This document shows, one piece after another, positions 1 through 30,036 of a stretch of DNA of 40,638 bases. The stretch comes from a virus. The translations under genes and the position numbers were made by a program. The notes under the pieces were generated by a model. That model saw only the letters and a list, made by a program, of their open reading frames with translations, was not told the origin of the DNA and did not search any database. Position 1 is the first letter of the stretch. Each line of letters opens with the position of its first letter. Location: positions 1 to 40,638 of IMG/VR virus record IMGVR_UViG_3300040801_003765, one strand, 5' to 3'.

Positions 1-490
1 GATACCGTAAAGATACTGATCTCTGGTACGTATATTTAAAGAAACAGAATCATAAGAACCTGTAGATATACTCCAAGAAGTAGAAAGAGAATACTGATAA
101 ACTACGTCAAGGTTATAATCCACCACATACACTTTAGAGCCATCTTGGCTGAAAGCCATTTCATATGGAGAGTCTACTTCAGTACCTACAAGCAAATAAG
201 CAGAGTCATAAGAGGCTGTGGATACATTCCAAGGAGTAGAAAGAGAATACTGGTAAATTTTGTTATAAGAGGATCCTAATATGTACATCTTAGACCCATC
301 AGGCTTAAAGGCTACACTATATAAAATGTTATCCTCATCAGATACATCAAAAGAAACGGAGTCATAAGAAGCTATCGATAAATCCGGAACATGGTAAGCA
401 CTCGTAACTTGTTTCCAAGTGCCTCCATCATTGACCCAAACTTCTTGAATTTGTTTCCAAACACCCCCGTCATTTACATAAGGATCAGCC
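1..490. repeat. Left copy of a 490-bp imperfect terminal repeat
   Basis: By hand alignment this matches 40149-40638 without gaps. Positions 1-77 and 404-490 are identical, while about 37 mismatches lie between 78 and 403. This is most simply the overlap of a circular or terminally redundant genome assembled through two variants of the fibre gene. Two real tandem paralogues with a missing piece between them remain possible. Confidence 0.9.
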
Positions 491-528
491 TCTTTCCACA
501 CGCTTGAATCGTTTACATGTAAAGTCAT
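1..528 (-). CDS. Tail fibre, beta-propeller type, N-terminal part (runs off the left edge)
   Basis: The ATG is at 528-526 and overlaps the stop of the upstream fibre gene (ATGA), which suggests translational coupling. The N terminus has three copies of a VNDGGxWK-like motif (VNDSSVWKE, VNDGGVWKQ, VNDGGTWKQ), common at the base of phage fibres. It is followed by about 45-residue blades built on AFSxDGSKMY, then IYQYSLSTPW, then STASYDS. These look like YncE/WD-type propeller blades and presumably form a receptor-binding head (inference). The frame is open to position 1. Position 1 equals position 40149, so on a circular map the protein continues at 40148 and ends at 39768, giving about 302 residues and five blades. 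The segment differs from the right-hand copy in about 37 bases, mostly changing amino acids. Confidence 0.75.
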   Translation of the reverse strand, partial: MTLHVNDSSVWKEADPYVNDGGVWKQIQEVWVNDGGTWKQVTSAYHVPDLSIASYDSVSFDVSDEDNILYSVAFKPDGSKMYILGSSYNKIYQYSLSTPWNVSTASYDSAYLLVGTEVDSPYEMAFSQDGSKVYVVDYNLDVVYQYSLSTSWSISTGSYDSVSLNIRTRDQYLYGI

Positions 529-1781
529 GATTCCACCTTATACCAAACATCACCAGATGATCCACCAGATGGATCTGATGTTGAAACTGTTAAAGCCCTT
601 TCAGCCATAGTTCCAATGCTGCACATTGTTTTGACCTGGGCAGCTGTCAGCTCTTGCGGAGTACCTGCCGTAGATACTCTACCCACAATCCTATCAGCGG
701 TCATGCTGGAATGATCAGAAGCTCCATTTATAGCATGAGCTCGTGTATGCAGTCTTGAGTCACCTGTATCAATTAAAGTAGCATCCGAAATCTTGCCATT
801 TAAAGCAGCCAGAGTAGAAGCTGAATGCTCTGATCCTGCCACAGCATGAGAAGAAGGTGTACGGGCATCTGATAGCCTGGCATCAGCTGTGTCAATTAAC
901 GTGGCATCTGACACCAGTGCGTTGAGTTCAGCTAAAGTAGCTGAAGTGTGGTCTGCTCCACCCAACGCGTGAGCTTGTGTATGAAGATCTGTATGGTCAT
1001 ATGTTGCCTCATGCGTAACAACAGAGTCTACTGAAAGTGCTGAGATGTCTGCCTGGATATCATTTATTTGGGCCAATAGAGTTGCTTCACCATCACGAGC
1101 ATTTGTAACCTCTGTAGTTACAGTTACAATGTCTGCCTGGATAGCATTGATCTGAGCCAGAAGGCTTGCTTCCCCATCCCGTGCTGCTTCAATCTCTGCA
1201 GTGTTTGTTGCAACATCTGCGTGATCTGAACCGTCACCAGCTGTATGTATTGTATTAAGAGAGATGCCCGCCTGGATAGCATTAATCTGGGCAAGTAAAC
1301 TTGACTCACCATCTCGTGCTGCTTCAATCTCTGCAGTGTTTGCTGCAACATCCGCATGATCTGAGCCATCACCTGTTGAGTGTGTAGTGTTCGTTGCAAC
1401 GTTTGCGTGATCTGAACCATCACCAGCTGTGTGTATTGTATTAGGAGAGATGTCCGCCTGGATAGAATCGATCTGGGCCAGAAGGTTTGCTTCCCCATCC
1501 CGGGCTGCTTCAATCTCTGCAGTGACAGTAGTAATGTTGGCTTGTATATCATTGATCTGTGCTAAAAGATTTGCCTCACCATCACGAGCATTTGTTACTT
1601 CAGTTGTAACAGTAGAGATGTCTGCCTGGATATCATTTATTTGGGCCAGCAAAGTTGCTTCACCATCACGGGCATTTTCGACTTCAGTAGCTATAGCAAA
1701 GAGCTCAGTCAAATCTCCTTGAATTTTGGTAACAAGTACATCACCAATATAGTCACTTGAAGTAAAAGTATCTTGAGCCAT
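525..1781 (-). CDS. Repetitive coiled-coil tail fibre protein
   Basis: This 418-residue protein starts with MAQDTFTSSDY, behind the ribosome site AAAGGAACATTAAT. Residues of about 30-260 are repeats of a heptad-like unit (NARDGEATLLAQINDIQADI and variants ending in EIEAARDGEASLLAQI), interleaved with a TIHTAGDGSDHADVATNT unit. The first unit should make a trimeric coiled-coil shaft. Later blocks of the type HALGGADHTSATLAELNALVSDATLID are typical of phage fibre repeats. The C terminus (GGSSGDVWYKVES) resembles fibre ends that join a further fibre. It lies between the nozzle gene and the propeller fibre and is coupled to the latter by ATGA. It is probably the shaft connecting the tail to the receptor-binding protein (inference). 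The internal DNA repeats are long enough to recombine. Confidence 0.8.
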   Translation of the reverse strand: MAQDTFTSSDYIGDVLVTKIQGDLTELFAIATEVENARDGEATLLAQINDIQADISTVTTEVTNARDGEANLLAQINDIQANITTVTAEIEAARDGEANLLAQIDSIQADISPNTIHTAGDGSDHANVATNTTHSTGDGSDHADVAANTAEIEAARDGESSLLAQINAIQAGISLNTIHTAGDGSDHADVATNTAEIEAARDGEASLLAQINAIQADIVTVTTEVTNARDGEATLLAQINDIQADISALSVDSVVTHEATYDHTDLHTQAHALGGADHTSATLAELNALVSDATLIDTADARLSDARTPSSHAVAGSEHSASTLAALNGKISDATLIDTGDSRLHTRAHAINGASDHSSMTADRIVGRVSTAGTPQELTAAQVKTMCSIGTMAERALTVSTSDPSGGSSGDVWYKVES

Positions 1782-1782
1782 A

Positions 1783-3801
1783 TTAATGTTCCTTTAACTT
1801 TCTAAGTTTAATAACAAAGCCATCAACATATATTGGTGTCCCAATAACTTTAAAGTCTTGGCATTCAAATTGTATGGCAAAACAATGAATATTTACATCA
1901 AAAAAGGCCGGGCTACCGCCTTCAATAACAGCTCGATCTGCTATATCTGAAATAGGAATATCTTCAACTTCAGCTATAGTCAAATCATCAGCTAAAGGAT
2001 ATGACCTTGTAAAAGCTGAATAAACTGTTCGTCGTGACCTATTCACATATACATTTAGAGTAAACTCTAGTCCCGTTCTGCAAGCAAAAAGAGTTTGAAT
2101 TTGTTCAATATCAGCTTCTTGGAAAACAGTTTCCATATAAGCTGTTTTAAATTTGGGCTGTACGTATGTGGTTGTCAAATCCTTAATAATAGAATCTGAT
2201 AAAGTATAGATTTTCCCATCAGAAGCGCCTATCATGAACTCACCTTCAACCATACAAAACTTAGTTGGCTCTGCACTTGAAGGGAGTACATTTTTATAGC
2301 GCACCCAAGGAAATCTTACAATACCATCATTATCCCGAATTGGCTGTTTAACATGGCACACATGAATATATGTAGGAGCATCTGGAAAAAAAAGCCAATA
2401 CTGTCCGTCATAAGGATAATACCCAGAAATAGCTGATGAGGACCAATTTTCAAAAGCGTCTTTTATTGAGTCTGAAACTGGTTGAGTACGAAGATCACCA
2501 TACTCTTCAACACCACTTAATGTAGTAACTCCGTCTTGTGACCCACACCAAAATTCGTTGTTTGTGTTTTGAACAAGTCCTGGTGTCGACCACAAACTTT
2601 GAAACATACTGGTTATCTGATAGTCAGAAGGATCATAGCCTGTAAGCATAGCAACAAATGGATGTTCCTCTGTGCCTATTATAACAAGACTGTCATAAAG
2701 AACACCTAAAGCTCCTACAGGATAAGAATTTTTACCTTCATCTAGAACCCCAAGCCAACCAGCCTCATTCGTAGTTGACCAGTCTAAATGTGTTTGATTC
2801 CCGAAGTAAAGACGTCCAGGCTCATCAGGGTCTTTTATAAAAGGGCTATCATTAAAGATTATGCCATCTTCTGCTTTAGGTGGCAACCCTGGCCAGACGG
2901 TTATACAAGGATCAGCTGTTGCTGTATTAGTCCAAGTTGACCCATCATAAGTATACAGCACGCCACCCGATACAACAGTTGACTGAAAGACTTTAAAGCC
3001 ATCACCTTCAACACTGACATAATAGTCAGTAGAAGCTGCAAGTTCGGCTGTAATATCTCCAGCATCAAAAGTAACCTCAATCTCTTCAGGAGCTGAACTT
3101 GAGATAGGTCGATCATAATCTTTTGTTGCTACTACAGAATCATCACTGACTTTTCTAATCTTTATTGTAATATCAGCTGTAGTAGTCTCTTGAACAACTA
3201 CAGCTACTCGCGTAGGTGGCATTGTAATACCAGTACCATAATTTGGCGTGGTAAACTTAGCTGCAACTCGTTCTACCCCACCAACAGACTCTGTTGTACT
3301 ATCATCCTGATAACCTGTGGCATTATTGTAAATGGCTCCATCGTAATCGCCATCGTCATAAGCAAGATCAATTTCAGTGATGCTTTTGATATACTTCAGA
3401 TATCCACCATCACAGATCAAACAGGTATTGTTGTATGGGATAAGCTTTGAAGGGCCAGCAACTGTTCCGATTTCTGTTGGTACCAAAGAGCCATTCAAGT
3501 AATAAATCTTTGTACCAGCAGATATAATGACATAATCAGTACCACCTATATTAGCTGATACTATGTCATATATTGCTGCTGCAGCCGCCACAGTTGTATG
3601 TGCTTTAAACCGTGGGCGTGATTCCAAACGCCCACCCGGATTCATCTTGAAGTCAATACAATAAGCAAGTTCTTTGGGATCTAATTGAAAAGCTGGAACA
3701 CTGGTATTCTCACCCAGAGGAAACCGTTGGAAGGACATCATCTCCCGTTCAACATCTTGAAAAGGAATTTGGGCTAAAGATTCTAAATGATTAGTAAACA
3801 T
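1783..3801 (-). CDS. Tail nozzle protein (beta-propeller, P22 gp10 / T7 gp12 role)
   Basis: This is a 672-residue protein counted from the ATG at 3801; a TTG four codons upstream (3813) is an alternative start. It overlaps the end of the adaptor gene by 11 bases. The sequence is beta-rich, with segments such as RLESRPRFK, YVIISAGTKIYYLNGS, YTYDGSTWT and IYTLSDS spread over the whole length. These are characteristic of the propeller of podovirus tail nozzle or stabilisation proteins. About residues 290-400 contain the usual block in which a display of values (DEPGRLYFGNQTHLDWS) is followed by a search for a start-up or trigger value. The position directly after an adaptor gene and before the fibres fits a nozzle that extends the portal channel. 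The assignment rests on order and sequence character, not on a search. Confidence 0.7.
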   Translation of the reverse strand: MFTNHLESLAQIPFQDVEREMMSFQRFPLGENTSVPAFQLDPKELAYCIDFKMNPGGRLESRPRFKAHTTVAAAAAIYDIVSANIGGTDYVIISAGTKIYYLNGSLVPTEIGTVAGPSKLIPYNNTCLICDGGYLKYIKSITEIDLAYDDGDYDGAIYNNATGYQDDSTTESVGGVERVAAKFTTPNYGTGITMPPTRVAVVVQETTTADITIKIRKVSDDSVVATKDYDRPISSSAPEEIEVTFDAGDITAELAASTDYYVSVEGDGFKVFQSTVVSGGVLYTYDGSTWTNTATADPCITVWPGLPPKAEDGIIFNDSPFIKDPDEPGRLYFGNQTHLDWSTTNEAGWLGVLDEGKNSYPVGALGVLYDSLVIIGTEEHPFVAMLTGYDPSDYQITSMFQSLWSTPGLVQNTNNEFWCGSQDGVTTLSGVEEYGDLRTQPVSDSIKDAFENWSSSAISGYYPYDGQYWLFFPDAPTYIHVCHVKQPIRDNDGIVRFPWVRYKNVLPSSAEPTKFCMVEGEFMIGASDGKIYTLSDSIIKDLTTTYVQPKFKTAYMETVFQEADIEQIQTLFACRTGLEFTLNVYVNRSRRTVYSAFTRSYPLADDLTIAEVEDIPISDIADRAVIEGGSPAFFDVNIHCFAIQFECQDFKVIGTPIYVDGFVIKLRKLKEH

Positions 3802-4384
3802 AAGACCCCGCAAGAGAATAAGTTAAAGCACCATGCTTTTGAATCATTCGAGCTAAAGCTCTTTCCCGAACATTGTTTGCCATGATGGCTGCAGTAGAAA
3901 TGTCATACTGCCGAATCATTTTACAAGTTAAAATCAAAGTCCATCTTAAAGCATCATCCCACTCACCATCCCAGGGAAGAGTGTCAGCTAAAGCAGTTAA
4001 AGCTGTAGGACGTGCATCCCAATAGTAAGCTATAATAGCCTCAGTTCCTTGGTTGTAAAAAGTTATTCCTGAACTTGTTTCGATATAAGAAAAACGATCG
4101 GGGTAAAGCTCCGAATACCTCGGAACAAGATTTGTTTTATCAGCATAAACACCATGAACCACAATGGCATCTTTACTGGCAATAGCCAGAGTATCGACAC
4201 TCGCAGACAGTGTAGTCGAAGCAGAACTCATGATGGCTTTGCAATTTACACCACGCATATCATCATAAAAGGAATTGAGAATATCATTTGCCATAGAAAT
4301 GAAATTGGCATCAGTAAAATATTCTGTTGCTTCTTCCCTGATATGAAGACGAACTTTTGCGACTACACTGCTGAGAGTACCCAT
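3791..4384 (-). CDS. Head-tail adaptor-like protein (gp4/gp11 role)
   Basis: This 197-residue protein has a good ribosome site (AGGAGTAAATT before the ATG). It starts MGTLSSVVAKVRLHIREEATEYFTDANFISMANDILNSF, a helical N-terminal pattern common in phage adaptor proteins that sit below the portal. The C-terminal half (WDDALRWTLILTCKMIRQYDISTAAIMANNVRERALARM) is a long helical segment like that of P22 gp4-type adaptors. It lies between a short head gene and the nozzle gene, as the adaptor does in podoviruses. The function is inferred from position and helical pattern, and the exact family is not certain. Confidence 0.6.
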   Translation of the reverse strand: MGTLSSVVAKVRLHIREEATEYFTDANFISMANDILNSFYDDMRGVNCKAIMSSASTTLSASVDTLAIASKDAIVVHGVYADKTNLVPRYSELYPDRFSYIETSSGITFYNQGTEAIIAYYWDARPTALTALADTLPWDGEWDDALRWTLILTCKMIRQYDISTAAIMANNVRERALARMIQKHGALTYSLAGSYVY

Positions 4385-12073: not shown

Positions 12074-12145
12074 TAGGAAAAATGGCGAACGATATATGTG
12101 CAATACTTTTCATCGGTCATAGAAGACGTAACATATATTGGAGAA
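12074..12145. other. Upstream of the late promoter, no gene seen
   Basis: This AT-rich non-coding stretch lies between the late promoter and the 72-bp direct repeats. I see no ribosome site with an open frame of useful length. It presumably carries regulatory sites of the divergent control region. Confidence 0.5.
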
Positions 12146-12310
12146 ATTGGTTACACCTCCGATGGCTACAGTCATAAAACGTCACATTTTCTGTGAAAGT
12201 CATTGTGAAAAATTGGTTACACTCATCGACTGATCGGCTACAGTCATAAAACGTCACATTTTCTGTGAAAGTCATTGGAGAAAATTGGTTACACTCCCAT
12301 CGACTGATCG
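12146..12310. repeat. 72-bp direct repeats in the divergent control region
   Basis: The core ATTGGTTACAC appears at 12146, 12212 and 12284. A block starting GGCTACAGTCATAAAACGTC occurs at 12164 and again at 12236, exactly 72 bases apart; it is identical over about 42 bases. Each is followed by the core and by ATCGACTGATCGG. Possible origin iterons or operators for divergent late/early transcription. Confidence 0.85.
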
Positions 12311-12317
12311 GCGAATC

Positions 12318-12440
12318 CCACTCATTTAATGAATGACCCCCAGCCGTCTTTTGAATACCATTCATTTAATGAAGATCCTTGGCACTCAAGCCTTTCATCT
12401 TCATACCCAAATTTAATTAATGAATATTAATCTGGCGAAG
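12318..12440. repeat. Short palindromes of the CATTTAATG type
   Basis: At 12361 the sequence TTCATTTAATGAA is a perfect 13-base palindrome (centre T), and CATTTAATG recurs at about 12323 in a slightly different surrounding. Related AT-rich words follow (ATTTAATTAATGAAT near 12411). They precede the 18-bp iteron array and may be the palindromic form of the same site. Confidence 0.65.
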
Positions 12441-12446
12441 CTAAGA

Positions 12447-12618
12447 TTCATTTATTGAGTGACACCCATTTAATAAATGAATCCAATTCATTTCACGCAC
12501 ACAATTCATTTCATGCACGACACTCATCTATTGAGTGGCATTCATTTATTGAGCAGGATTCATCTCACGCATGACATTCATTTCACGCACGTCATTCATC
12601 TATTGATTGTCATTTATA
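12447..12618. repeat. Degenerate iteron array, period about 17-18 bp
   Basis: Tandem, imperfect copies of ATTCATYTNNYGNRYGNC run up to the early promoter. Two alternating forms are visible: one with CACGCA after the ATTCATTT (12487, 12504, 12558, 12577) and one with TATTGA (12447, 12523, 12540, 12595). The spacing places successive copies on roughly one face after every two turns of the helix less a few degrees. This looks like an array of binding sites for one protein or two related proteins. Confidence 0.75.
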
Positions 12619-12684: not shown

Positions 12685-12707
12685 CAAATTGAGAATGGCT
12701 CAATTTG
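12685..12707 (+). promoter_or_regulatory. 5' leader hairpin / operator downstream of P1
   Basis: CAAATTGAG, five bases AATGG, then CTCAATTTG: a perfect 9-bp inverted repeat at about +3 to +25. Related TGAG/CTCA or CGAG/CTCG repeats follow P2 and P3. It could be an mRNA 5' stem-loop or an operator. Confidence 0.7.
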
Positions 12708-12739
12708 AAAATTCAACAAGTTTGACAGGAGGTATGACC

Positions 12740-13048
12740 ATGAGTAAAAAAGAATTGAGTAGAGAAGAGTTACTGGCAATTTTGGCTGAAAAGGACCAAG
12801 AACTGGAAGCACTGAAAAACAGCAACGGGCAGACCATGCCTGAGCGAGTGTTCAGTCTCATCGAGCAAGGCTACCGGACAATTGAGGAGCTTGCAACTGA
12901 GCTGAAGACCAACAGCCGGAACATCAGCTCCAACCTGACCTACATCAGACGCGAGCTGAAACCCAAGGGCAAATGGTTGGTCTCCAGCAAGATCGATGGC
13001 AAGACCTACCTGAAGATCATCGATCTGGCAGAATTTGGCTGGATGTAA
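12740..13048 (+). CDS. Small winged-helix regulator, copy A
   Basis: The start is the ATG at 12740 with the ribosome site AGGAGGT six bases upstream. The 102-residue protein has an N-terminal coiled-coil region (residues 3-28, SREELLAILAEKDQELEAL) and then a helix-turn-helix of ArsR/MarR style (residues 35-72, VFSLIEQGYRTIEELATELKTNSRNISSNLTYIRREL). A wing-like hairpin follows (KWLVSSKIDGKTYLKI). About 85 per cent of its residues are identical to copy B (13397-13702). The architecture suggests a dimeric DNA-binding protein that controls the iteron region or the copied promoters (inference). It is followed by a hairpin and a terminator, so it is a single-gene unit. Confidence 0.8.
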   Translation: MSKKELSREELLAILAEKDQELEALKNSNGQTMPERVFSLIEQGYRTIEELATELKTNSRNISSNLTYIRRELKPKGKWLVSSKIDGKTYLKIIDLAEFGWM

Positions 13049-13240: not shown

Positions 13241-13311
13241 AAGAGGCCAACCCTGGCCAGTGGTGACTCTAGGGACTAGCGCAGCACTGTGAAAATAGGA
13301 TAGAAAAAGTG

Positions 13312-13340
13312 TTTACAAGGATGCACCGATGTTATATAAT
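13312..13340 (+). promoter_or_regulatory. Early promoter P2 with leader inverted repeat
   Basis: TTTACA, 17-base spacer, TATAAT. A stem TGAGG-ACGA-CCTCA follows at 13354-13367. About 36 of 37 bases around both elements are identical to P3 at 17299-17332, including the spacer. It drives winged-helix regulator B. The conserved spacer sequence (AAGGATKCACCGATGTTA) is more than a promoter needs and is a candidate operator. Confidence 0.85.
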
Positions 13341-13396
13341 ATAGTTATAAGATTGAGGACGACCTCAGTCATAACACAACTACAGGAGGTATCACC

Positions 13397-13702
13397 ATGA
13401 CAAAAGAACTGAGTAGAGAAGAACTGCTGGCAATCCTGGAAGAAAAAGACCAAGAACTAGAAGCACTGAAGAACTCGGCTGGACAGACAATGCCAGACCG
13501 GGTATTAAACCTGATCAATTCAGGGTACCGGACAATTGAGGAACTGGCCAGTGAGTTGAAGACTAACAGCCGGAACATTTCATCCAACCTCACTTATATC
13601 CGGCGTGAGTTGAAGCCACAGGGCAAATGGCTGGTGTCCAGCAAGATTGACGGACACACTTATTTGAAGATCATCAGTCTGGAAGAGTTTGGCTGGATCT
13701 AG
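13397..13702 (+). CDS. Small winged-helix regulator, copy B
   Basis: A 101-residue protein with ribosome site AGGAGGT and the ATG at 13397. It shares the coiled-coil N terminus, the HTH (RVLNLINSGYRTIEELASELKTNSRNISSNLTYIRREL) and the wing with copy A; about 13 residues differ over 98. Gene and flanking layout are the same (own promoter, leader inverted repeat, terminator), so the whole cassette was duplicated and then diverged. Differences fall mostly at residues 32-50 (for example ERVFSLIEQ against DRVLNLINS), while the presumed recognition helix is unchanged. Both copies would then bind the same site or heterodimerise (inference). Confidence 0.8.
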   Translation: MTKELSREELLAILEEKDQELEALKNSAGQTMPDRVLNLINSGYRTIEELASELKTNSRNISSNLTYIRRELKPQGKWLVSSKIDGHTYLKIISLEEFGWI

Positions 13703-13753: not shown

Positions 13754-14254
13754 ATTTTAACAAATTCCCAGTACAGACAGACGAAGCAGCAGTGACAAAA
13801 TAGCACATATAACGTGTTGTAAAGAATGCGATATTTTGCGTTCGTTGCGTTCTGACCAGTGGGTGGCGAAATTTCGTTGCGCGTGGCTTTTCTACGCATA
13901 CCTAAGTACTTGAAATTACTACCTTTTTACTCTATTTTGTATTATTGCTTTATACTTAAAGATTATATAATTAAATTTTTATCTATAAGTAAACTCTGCG
14001 GTCATAGAGTGCCACAGAACGAGTGCACCACCGCCGGAGCTCACCACCACCGGAGAAAGTTTCAAAAAAAAAAAAAATTCACATTTTGCTACGAAGAGCT
14101 AAAAATAGCTAGTATTCTTAATGATTTCAAGTACTTAGGAGATCGCGTTCTTTTCTCGCGTTTTTTGCGTTCCCCTAACTATTTGATTTTATTAGCTTTT
14201 TTTCGTTGCCTTTTTCTCACCTTTTTCGCTAAAGCGAATCACAAGGAACGTTAT
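13754..14254. other. Non-coding, AT-rich; candidate replication origin, first part
   Basis: About 500 bases without a gene. It holds the fourth CAGACAGAC copy (13771), several GCGTT words (GCGTTCGTTGCGTTC near 13838, then 14147-14171), a pair of CACCACCRCCGGAG words (14027-14055), a run of 13 A's (14066) and a small palindrome TTCGCT-AA-AGCGAA (14225-14238). One open frame here is AT-rich and has no ribosome site. Confidence 0.6.
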
Positions 14255-14371
14255 ATGTTAAGTTAATATGTTAAGTTAATATGTTAAGTTAATATGTTAA
14301 GTTAATATGTTAAGTTAATATGTTAAGTTAATATGTTAAATTAATATGTTAAGTTAATATGTTAAGTTAAT
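14255..14371. repeat. Nine tandem copies of a 13-bp AT-rich repeat
   Basis: The unit ATGTTAAGTTAAT is repeated nine times head to tail, eight identical and the seventh with one A for G. A partial copy (ATGT) follows. It is the easiest-melting DNA of the window and precedes the primase/helicase gene by 390 bases. I take it as a likely DNA-unwinding element or iteron array of a replication origin. Confidence 0.9.
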
Positions 14372-14375
14372 ATGT

Positions 14376-14794: not shown

Positions 14795-17294
14795 CCAAAT
14801 CTGGACCTTAGTTATCGCCAACATCCGTGATAACAAGGTGCCTGAGTATTATTATACAAAACGTAAGATGCCTCTCTTAACTTACCAGGCAGCAGTAGAG
14901 CGGTATAATCGCATGCCACAGAAATATGCTCCAGCTATTGGAATTGTATCAAGTGATTATATTGTCCTGGATATAGATAAAACCACCTGGCCAGAGGAGA
15001 TCCAAAATTTACTTAAAGATCATCCCACACTCCACCACAAGTCAAAATCGGGCAATGGGTTTCGGGTGGTCTATTCTACAGAAACACCCTTACCAAAGAA
15101 GATGATGGCATTTGAACATGGCGAGGTCTATTGTGGTGCGTTTGTCACTATGAACCCACCATTACAAGATGAGCAGCAAGACTATTCCACCGATACTATA
15201 ACATCAATAGAGCCTCAAGTTCTCGCCAACTACTCACCTAAGATTAAGAAGCGGCTCAACAACATCGCCCCAGAACACTCAGCATTGACACACATTTCCA
15301 ACTACCCAGACGGAGAAAAGTTGTTTCAGGAAGCACGGCAGATCTTGTCTATTTTACCAGCCGATGTTACTCCTCTTCTTGAGACAACATATGAGCTAAG
15401 ACTCAAAGACTTTGAATTGACATCATATTCACATTGGCTCTTGGTATCACATGCGTTGGCAGATCTTTGTGTGGGCGTTGCAAGAGACTATGACTTAGGA
15501 CCACAACTCAAGCAACTATTCATTGAGTGGTCACGGCAGTCACAGTCATTTATTTCTGATGAGGACGTGGAGGAGAGATGGTCGCGATCACTACATGAGA
15601 CCATTACTGCTAATAAACCCATTGTTACTTTCAGCACACTACGAAAACTTTATTGGGGCTATAGAATTCCCATAGAAGAGTTTCCTAAGATCAAGGTGGA
15701 CAAGAAAGGTAATACTACTATCGACACCTCTGATCCACGAAACTTTGAATTTCTCACGCGGCGACTTAAGCTCACACTGGTCAGAGACTTCTACACAGGA
15801 CTGGTCTATATTAAGGGGCCCAAAGCTATTATTCGTCACTATTTCACTTCTGGCCAGGGTGACTTCTTGACTAAAGAGAATGAGAACATATCTATACCTT
15901 TTTTGGAGAAGTATAGAAATGATGAAGACTTGCAATTCCGTTTAGTTAACCTGTTTAGAGACTTTGGCATTTCAGGTGCAGCTAAGACACAACCTATTTT
16001 TGCTGGGTTTTATCAACAAGGTGAAGAGTTGATTGATGCTATGTATCTGTGGTTGACAAGTAAACCCTGGGATAAGACACCAAGGTTTATGGATACAATA
16101 AAAGCTTCGATACAGTTTGATCCCACAGTGCTGCAAGATCTTAGGGATCATGAGCGCATGTATACTCTCATCTGGAAACATTGCTTAAATATGGTGGGGC
16201 TCAGAGCTAAAGCAAACAGATATCTTACAGGTTCTGAACTGCCTGAGGATAGACTTAAGCGCGCTCAGGGTATTCTTATTTTAGCAGGGTATCAGTCAAC
16301 ACATAAAACCACCTGGGTAGAGTGTCTTCTACCATCTAAAGCAGATGCTGTCAACTCTGTAACACCCTCATCTATGCGAGATACCTTGGAGATGCAGAGA
16401 GCACTCGCGGGTGCCTTTATTTTAAATATTGATGAGGTTGACGCAGTCCTGGATAAAATAGATCTGTCAGATTTTAAGAATGTACTCACCCAGGAGAAAG
16501 ACACGTATCGGACGATGTACACCCAACAGTTTAGATCTTTACCGAGAGCAGCTGGGTTCTTTGGGACTACAAATAAATCCCACATGCGCCTGGATAGAAC
16601 TGGGAATAGAAGGTTTTGGATTGTTCCTGTGAAGTCATGTGATGCTTTGCCTTTTCTTGAGTGCGACTACCAACAACTCTGGGCAGAAGCGCTATATTAT
16701 GCCGAGAATACGCCTATCGACGAATGGAATATGTCTTCTGACGATAAAGACTTTATCAATCGAATAGCTATGGAATACCAGAAAGAAAATCAAGGAACTA
16801 AATCATTAGACATGATCTATTCAGATTCATTGTATACTCATGAAGATATAGATTTTAAATTTTTCTTTGAAGACCTTAAGACTGTGGCTGTTCGCTTCTT
16901 TGCAAAAGAGGATGTACTTATTCCTTTAAGAGGACAAAAAGCTTTTCAAATTATAAAGAACCGAGGACTTCTTGCTGGTACAGAATTTGATCTTAAATCT
17001 TTTGATTACATCATAAAGGATTTTATAGCTGATACAACTGGCTTACATAACCAAGTAGTTTCTGGTAGAAGTGGAAGTTTTTTTAAAGATGGAGTATTTA
17101 CTTATACACCTGGTGATAGAAGATATAAATATTATTTTCTACCGGATAGAGAAAAAATTAATGAAGCTATAGCTCAGGGCCTGGTTTCTCCTTATGTTTT
17201 CTATGAAGAACGGGAGAAAAAAATTGATGAGGCTGTAGCTCAGGGCTTGGTTTCTCCTGATGTTTTCTATGAAGAGCTGGAGAAAAAAGGATGA
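14757..17294 (+). CDS. Primase-helicase: PrimPol-like N terminus and VapE-type helicase
   Basis: 845 residues; the ATG at 14757 has AAGGGAG nine bases upstream. Residues 60-110 carry the archaeo-eukaryotic primase signature: YIVLDIDKT (D72, D74) and SKSGNGFRVVY, as in bifunctional primase/polymerase domains. Residues 400-640 match the virulence-associated protein E family: Walker A position about 511-519 (GYQSTHKTT), NIDEVD near 558, GTTN near 603 and the closing GNRRFWIVPV near 618. His replaces the usual Gly in the Walker loop. It should prime and unwind DNA at the phage origin. The last 45 residues are two tandem copies of a roughly 22-residue unit with core AQGLVSP, not a known part of this family. 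It contains three CTGGCCAG sites counting the start overlap. Confidence 0.85.
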   Translation: MLSYMPPKQMQDDQIWTLVIANIRDNKVPEYYYTKRKMPLLTYQAAVERYNRMPQKYAPAIGIVSSDYIVLDIDKTTWPEEIQNLLKDHPTLHHKSKSGNGFRVVYSTETPLPKKMMAFEHGEVYCGAFVTMNPPLQDEQQDYSTDTITSIEPQVLANYSPKIKKRLNNIAPEHSALTHISNYPDGEKLFQEARQILSILPADVTPLLETTYELRLKDFELTSYSHWLLVSHALADLCVGVARDYDLGPQLKQLFIEWSRQSQSFISDEDVEERWSRSLHETITANKPIVTFSTLRKLYWGYRIPIEEFPKIKVDKKGNTTIDTSDPRNFEFLTRRLKLTLVRDFYTGLVYIKGPKAIIRHYFTSGQGDFLTKENENISIPFLEKYRNDEDLQFRLVNLFRDFGISGAAKTQPIFAGFYQQGEELIDAMYLWLTSKPWDKTPRFMDTIKASIQFDPTVLQDLRDHERMYTLIWKHCLNMVGLRAKANRYLTGSELPEDRLKRAQGILILAGYQSTHKTTWVECLLPSKADAVNSVTPSSMRDTLEMQRALAGAFILNIDEVDAVLDKIDLSDFKNVLTQEKDTYRTMYTQQFRSLPRAAGFFGTTNKSHMRLDRTGNRRFWIVPVKSCDALPFLECDYQQLWAEALYYAENTPIDEWNMSSDDKDFINRIAMEYQKENQGTKSLDMIYSDSLYTHEDIDFKFFFEDLKTVAVRFFAKEDVLIPLRGQKAFQIIKNRGLLAGTEFDLKSFDYIIKDFIADTTGLHNQVVSGRSGSFFKDGVFTYTPGDRRYKYYFLPDREKINEAIAQGLVSPYVFYEEREKKIDEAVAQGLVSPDVFYEELEKKG
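17149..17280 (+). repeat. 66-bp tandem duplication in the end of the primase gene
   Basis: Two units encode REKINEAIAQGLVSPYVFYEE and REKKIDEAVAQGLVSPDVFYEE. The second has one more codon. At the DNA level they are about 85 per cent identical. They extend the C-terminal tail of the primase-helicase. Confidence 0.85.
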
Positions 17295-17302
17295 AAAAAG
17301 TG

Positions 17303-17331
17303 TTTACAAGGATTCACCGATGTTATATAAT
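17303..17331 (+). promoter_or_regulatory. Early promoter P3 with leader inverted repeat
   Basis: TTTACA (17303-17308), 17 bases, TATAAT (17326-17331), almost identical over 37 bases to P2. The leader has CGAG-AATAAC-CTCG at 17343-17356, in line with the P2 leader, and then AGGAGG before the ATG at 17386. It directs the cluster of small unknown genes from 17386. Confidence 0.85.
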
Positions 17332-17385
17332 AATACTATAATCGAGAATAACCTCGGTTACAACAGAGACTTAGGAGGATGAATC

Positions 17386-29663: not shown

Positions 29664-30036
29664 ATCGACCTCGTGTTCTAGGATGCACTTGAATATGAAA
29701 GTGCATCCCTCTCCCTGAATCATGCAAGATAGCTACCTGCATCCCAGGTCTTTCAGGATCATAGATCCATTTATCATTTATTTCCTGCTCGATGGCTTGC
29801 GCACGATCAGCACCACCGTTATAATCCCAAGAACGAATATCAACAGCTCGGACAGGAATAACACCGTGTAAGTCATTAGGATGCTCTTGCTCCCTATAAT
29901 ACTCGGTAAACATTACTCCATGATTTTTTGCCACCCACAATATAATTTTCATAAGTGTAGGATGACATGGATGCTTCAACATTCCGGCCAAAATCTCAGC
30001 ATTTTTAATTTCAATAACTCCAGGATTTAATGCCAC
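29650..30036 (-). CDS. Putative M15-like peptidase (lysis candidate)
   Basis: 128 residues with a GTG start (AAAGGACTAAATA upstream, overlap TAGTG with the preceding gene). H57 (LHGVIPVRAVDI), D66 and a closing H112-x-H114 (GRGMHFHIQVHP) have the order and spacing of zinc ligands in peptidase M15-type (VanY/D-Ala-D-Ala carboxypeptidase-like) enzymes. It would cleave peptidoglycan cross-bridge peptides, either as endolysin or as virion-associated enzyme. It lacks a signal peptide, so it would need a holin. No separate cell-wall-binding domain is visible. The zinc-site reading is convincing; the substrate is inferred. Confidence 0.65.
   Translation of the reverse strand: MALNPGVIEIKNAEILAGMLKHPCHPTLMKIILWVAKNHGVMFTEYYREQEHPNDLHGVIPVRAVDIRSWDYNGGADRAQAIEQEINDKWIYDPERPGMQVAILHDSGRGMHFHIQVHPRTRGRYALS

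Follow-up and report, generated by a model that had tools for sequence, protein, structure and literature searches.

Two versions of one propeller gene at the ends of a viral contig differ mainly on one face of the predicted protein

Why should the two ends of a single viral contig carry the same gene in two different versions? The stretch of DNA analysed here (the window) is an entire IMG/VR record of 40,638 bases, classed as "linear" by IMG/VR. An earlier note on this DNA had described positions 1-490 and 40149-40638 as aligning without gaps, identical over the first 77 and the last 87 bases and with about 37 differences between. We counted exactly 37 substitutions (92.4% identity), the first at position 78 and the last at 403, and the longest identical run inside this variable block is 35 bases, as against 77 and 87 in the flanks. 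The two contig ends are two versions of the start of one gene, which lies on the minus strand and stays open in both. The features concerned are as follows.

1-528, minus strand: propeller gene, version A; a 176-amino-acid open frame, aligned to version B and to gp51 of phage ICBM2
39768-40638, minus strand: propeller gene, version B; a 289-amino-acid open frame, modelled with AlphaFold2
78-403: variable block, version A; 37 substitutions relative to B, spanning blades 1-2 and the last part of the linker, from base-by-base comparison
40226-40551: variable block, version B, from base-by-base comparison with version A
1-77: left identical flank, exactly 77 bases, equal to 40149-40225
404-490: right identical flank, 87 bases, equal to 40552-40638
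525-1781, minus strand: upstream fibre/shaft gene, with repeated segments and weak matches to phage structural families; present in a single copy

Version A contains the start codon (complement of 526-528), the linker, blades 1 and 2 and the start of blade 3, and then runs off the contig start. Version B contains the linker and all five blades up to the stop, and lacks only about the first 13 codons, which lie beyond the contig end. The gene starts at 528, with a 4-base overlap with the stop of the fibre gene.

Contig ends are a usual place for errors, and one version could be a product of sequencing or assembly that does not exist in the virus. However, the 37 substitutions include no indel and create no stop, and they fall in 27 codons, with 18 amino-acid changes and 9 synonymous ones. 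When 37 random substitutions were placed in the block in 3000 simulated runs, only 18% of runs were stop-free, the mean number of amino-acid changes was 26.4, and no run had 18 or fewer. Because the frames are open and the amino-acid changes are fewer than simulated, we conclude that the differences between A and B are not sequencing errors, and we regard an artefact of either kind as extremely improbable. It had been said that most of the differences change amino acids; this is true of the changed codons, but the number is below the chance expectation. A direct terminal repeat of a linear phage genome was considered and rejected, since the end copies differ at 37 of 490 bases; the direct terminal repeats of the ICBM2 genome, in contrast, are exact copies of 159 bp.

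We compared the gene order around the two ends with that of a relative, IMGVR_UViG_3300019750_000003 (G003; 40,762 bases), in which the capsid, portal and terminase regions match those of the window in the same order. Two window genes are informative.

1783-3813, minus strand: conserved tail gene; in G003, a single fibre gene separates its homologue from that of 38063-39064
38063-39064, minus strand: gene near the other end; its C-terminal part resembles L021:5296-5766, as judged by eye

In G003, a single fibre gene comes next after the homologue of 1783-3813 (37% identity), and beyond it lies a gene with a C-terminus that, by eye, looks like that of 38063-39064. Since the neighbours of both window ends are adjacent in G003, the ends of the window most likely meet, which would make the genome circular. 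Joined across the ends, the propeller gene would have 303 codons including the stop, by arithmetic only. The flanks point in the same direction in part. The word length of the assembler was presumably 77, in which case the 77-base left flank is the junction word to be expected; at that word length in the graph, the block forms one uninterrupted bubble, which the start of the contig precedes by exactly one word. The right flank has 87 bases rather than 77, which counts against a bubble formed by two alleles, although the 10 additional bases are consistent with another branch point at 490.

We think it probable that a tailed phage with podovirus-like features, its genome circularly closed or circularly permuted, was assembled through a bubble in the assembly graph, formed where two alleles of a propeller gene were present together in one sampled population; the propeller probably serves as the receptor-binding tip. 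Having no basis for choosing between the alleles, the assembler would have entered the circle through allele A and left it through allele B, slightly past one round. Phage strain variants appear as branches of assembly graphs that part and rejoin (PMC10563150); those bubbles were seen in the graph, whereas the bubble proposed here is deduced from contig ends. If this explanation is right, the genome behind a "linear" contig can in fact be closed, with ends made unlike by real virus variation, and tests for exact end repeats would miss such closed genomes.

Taken alone, the assembly topology is also compatible with a phage that carries A and B as tandem paralogues, the contig being broken between them and the middle piece missing. 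About 10 of 80 related loci do have two or three separate propeller genes. However, the tandem propellers of these relatives share 58-66% DNA identity, with one pair at about 82%, and none approaches the identity of the window pair or has its long identical flanks. The corresponding site of G003 holds a single fibre gene, and if the duplication were very recent, divergence would have to be confined to the block. Hence, we consider tandem paralogues unlikely and favour two alleles. These were the two options that had been put forward for this locus, and the synteny, the 77-base flank and the far greater divergence of known paralogues make population variants on two assembly paths the better one.

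The encoded protein consists of a linker with three VND..(V/T)WK motifs followed by five repeats of about 50-52 amino acids, with the motifs DG[TS]K[MV]Y and YQYSLST found in ICBM2 gp51-like five-bladed phage propellers. An AlphaFold2 model made with 43 related viral sequences is a five-bladed beta-propeller (pLDDT 94.0, pTM 0.89) whose best structural match is ICBM2 gp51 (TM 0.86), and the repeats align to the YVTN propeller PDB 1l0q with a profile E of 2.7e-13. We predict from the model that the gene product is a closed five-bladed YVTN-like beta-propeller. The archaeal surface-layer propeller 1l0q shares the repeat motif and strand order of the window protein but is not a phage protein, has seven blades, and reaches a whole-fold TM of only 0.48. 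From the YVTN strand order, we take SPxGIAF to be the inner strand A, KMYxxG strand B, IYQYSLST strand C and ASYDSVSFSV strand D; by homology, the D-A and B-C loops would then presumably be those at offsets 11-17 and 35-38 of the repeat. In propellers generally, the ligand face is usually made up of loops of these two kinds.

The nearest annotated genome with such a propeller protein is that of Lentibacter phage vB_LenP_ICBM2 (Zobellviridae/Cobavirinae). Its gene 51 product (AYP28110.1) has five repeats of 52 amino acids, like the window protein, and is about 46% identical to it over the whole query. Both genes lie in a tail-fibre module: that of ICBM2 is beside tail assembly chaperones, and that of the window is beside the fibre gene and a second gene.

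39073-39750, minus strand: gene downstream of the propeller; carbohydrate-binding module 5/12 (Pfam CBM_5_12, E 1.7e-8)

The propeller and the product of 39073-39750 are likely two sugar-binding proteins encoded side by side. ICBM2 gp51 differs from the window protein in its N-terminal and C-terminal parts, is annotated as hypothetical, and has no reported variants. The host-recognition domain of Staphylococcus phage phi11 gp45 (PDB 5EFV) is likewise a five-bladed propeller, with a proposed sugar pocket (PMC4901313), but it has a different stem and tower and a Gram-positive host, and it was found neither by sequence search nor among 50 listed PDB fold matches. Position, fold and these analogies suggest that the propeller of the window is probably the receptor-binding tip of the phage tail. 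The fibre gene product would carry or neighbour it, and the exposed D-A (inter-blade) and B-C loops on one face would touch the host surface.

We mapped the differences between A and B onto the model. The earlier note had placed them at loops between propeller strands, and the model bears this out: 13 of 18 amino-acid changes lie outside strands (Fisher p=0.022), and the variant sites coincide with positions of the repeat at which homologous blades differ from one another (p=6e-4). One face of the propeller carries 14 of the 18 (p=0.004), and in a circular-shift test this count was reached only with shifts close to 0 or to one repeat length. Changed codons divide 14:2 between amino-acid and silent changes on the face and 4:6 elsewhere (p=0.026), with omega values of 1.28 and 0.15, respectively. 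We had already seen the variable sites when we defined the face, so that relatives are the fairer test. For six independent pairs of relatives, pooled as a non-redundant set (the pooled register counts contained redundant pairs), we obtained an omega of 0.57 on the face and 0.18 elsewhere, with changes of 49:30 and 24:38 (p=0.007), a weaker skew than in the window and one to which two of the six pairs add almost no face changes. The omega of 0.15 away from the variable face of the window protein reflects strong purifying selection, a further argument against an erroneous version.

These data are less favourable to the suggestion that change is faster in the receptor-binding part than in the shaft, a suggestion that is not supported as stated. 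Over the whole block, dN is 0.10 and dS is 0.19, so that dS is raised too, and the ratio of 0.53 led us to reject overall positive or diversifying selection on the block. The shaft gene is present once, leaving no second copy to set against the divergence of the propeller, and among near-identical pairs of relatives the comparison of the propeller with the regions outside it was mixed, with no general concentration of total divergence in the propeller. A narrower claim holds, namely that amino-acid changes gather on one of the propeller's faces. The raised dS suggests that the two forms of the block have an older common ancestor than the flanks, as would be expected of an allele that has been exchanged or long maintained, and it points to the age of the allele and not to rapid mutation.

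An old split within shared flanks could also mean that two closely related phage species have shared the flanks through recombination, and that the contig is a chimera of both. The dS of the block and the exchange of propellers between related contigs (below) both fit such a history. However, the rest of the contig is one sequence with no sign of a second genome (collapsed variants would be invisible), and this explanation differs from that of two alleles in one population only in degree. We rate it as a good deal less likely even than tandem paralogues.

Dense loop changes in a tail protein are also what targeted diversification would produce, whether its source were a diversity-generating retroelement or conversion with sequence from the gene's other blades. 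The earlier note had argued against a retroelement, and our results agree. We found no match to a reverse transcriptase family among the main window proteins scanned against Pfam and PHROGs, and no template copy of the variable block in the window. Changes are of all types, in 17 of the 37 differences neither coding-strand base is A, and many changes are silent. With respect to conversion, neither A nor B preferentially matches another blade at the variant sites. Targeted diversification is thus, in our judgement, almost certainly not the cause. Under the explanation that we prefer, the strands, being constant, would preserve the fold, and recognition would shift with the loop alleles; these alleles would probably be maintained by recombination, together with selection on host recognition, rather than by a dedicated mutator.

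Two pairs of related contigs show similar patterns. L086 and L087 differ at 24 sites within about 505 bases at the propeller start and at almost none in the next 5 kb, although L087 starts near its variable block, so that the difference could be an end effect. The block includes the loop after KMYIVG (TVDDGYD versus TDLAGFD), where the window has SSYNK and RGFDR at the matching position. L058 and L069 are 96.6% identical upstream, after which the propeller is replaced between conserved flanks. Together, the two pairs indicate that allele exchange at propellers has been seen independently of the window. Such exchange is not general; other near-identical pairs have no excess of differences at the propeller. 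A copy of the start of L087 was sought at its far end and not found, and no contig had propellers at both ends among the matches listed for 50 related contigs; the window is therefore a single case. We also considered whether propellers break contigs generally: a propeller lies less than 1 kb from an end in 7 of 41 contigs of at least 10 kb, with 4.4 expected, which is not significant. Three related phage contigs (L063, L052 and L056) have three separate propeller genes each, possibly encoding alternative receptor-binding tips.

At least 569 stretches in IMG/VR match this propeller family. No match was found in a single-sequence search for close homologues of the propeller, in a search of viral contigs for the exact DNA of the gene start, among phage records for DNA relatives of the window, or in bacterial genomes for the portal. 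In marine viromes, non-synonymous variants are concentrated in small segments of tail genes, which has been read as selection on host range (PMC6832022), and cobaviruses have variable tail-fibre modules (PMC6775973). The virome variants came from read mapping, whereas the window holds two haplotypes in one contig and its structural face can be named. The window is a clear case of an already known kind of system in a little-described family, and the new point is that the variable face of this little-annotated family can be named. If our reading is right, one face of a widespread, mostly unannotated propeller family is the probable host-contact surface. We tentatively suggest, as a possibility short of an even chance, that the proteins of this large and mostly unannotated phage family act as scaffolds for receptor binding, in which the strands stay constant while the top face varies under selection, its diversity arising from exchange of alleles and needing no mutator. 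If so, natural alleles would reveal the ligand contacts of the family.

Several other features of the window were recorded. A search with the fibre gene at 525-1781 gave partial repeat matches only, and one with the tail gene at 1783-3813 gave no result. Within 38063-39064, a 9-base repeat at 38515-38635 (12.9 copies) encodes a collagen-like GVQGVQ/GQAGQ stretch. The gene at 30036-34862 (minus strand) encodes a protein of 1608 residues that has no PHROGs or Pfam match and is homologous to a long protein of G003. The neighbouring small genes at 12689-13048 and 13397-13702 (plus strand) encode proteins that are 87% identical over 99 residues; they are a local gene duplication, beside repeats at 12137-12614. 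At 14253-14375, between genes, the 13-base unit ATATGTTAAGTTA is repeated 9.5 times at 98%; the array follows directly on a GC-skew minimum near 12-16 kb, precedes the primase/helicase genes, and is possibly an iteron-like origin. Finally, a 51-base repeat occurs at 17282-17332 and 13291-13341 with 92% identity, one copy just after a primase/helicase gene and the other between the two duplicated small genes.
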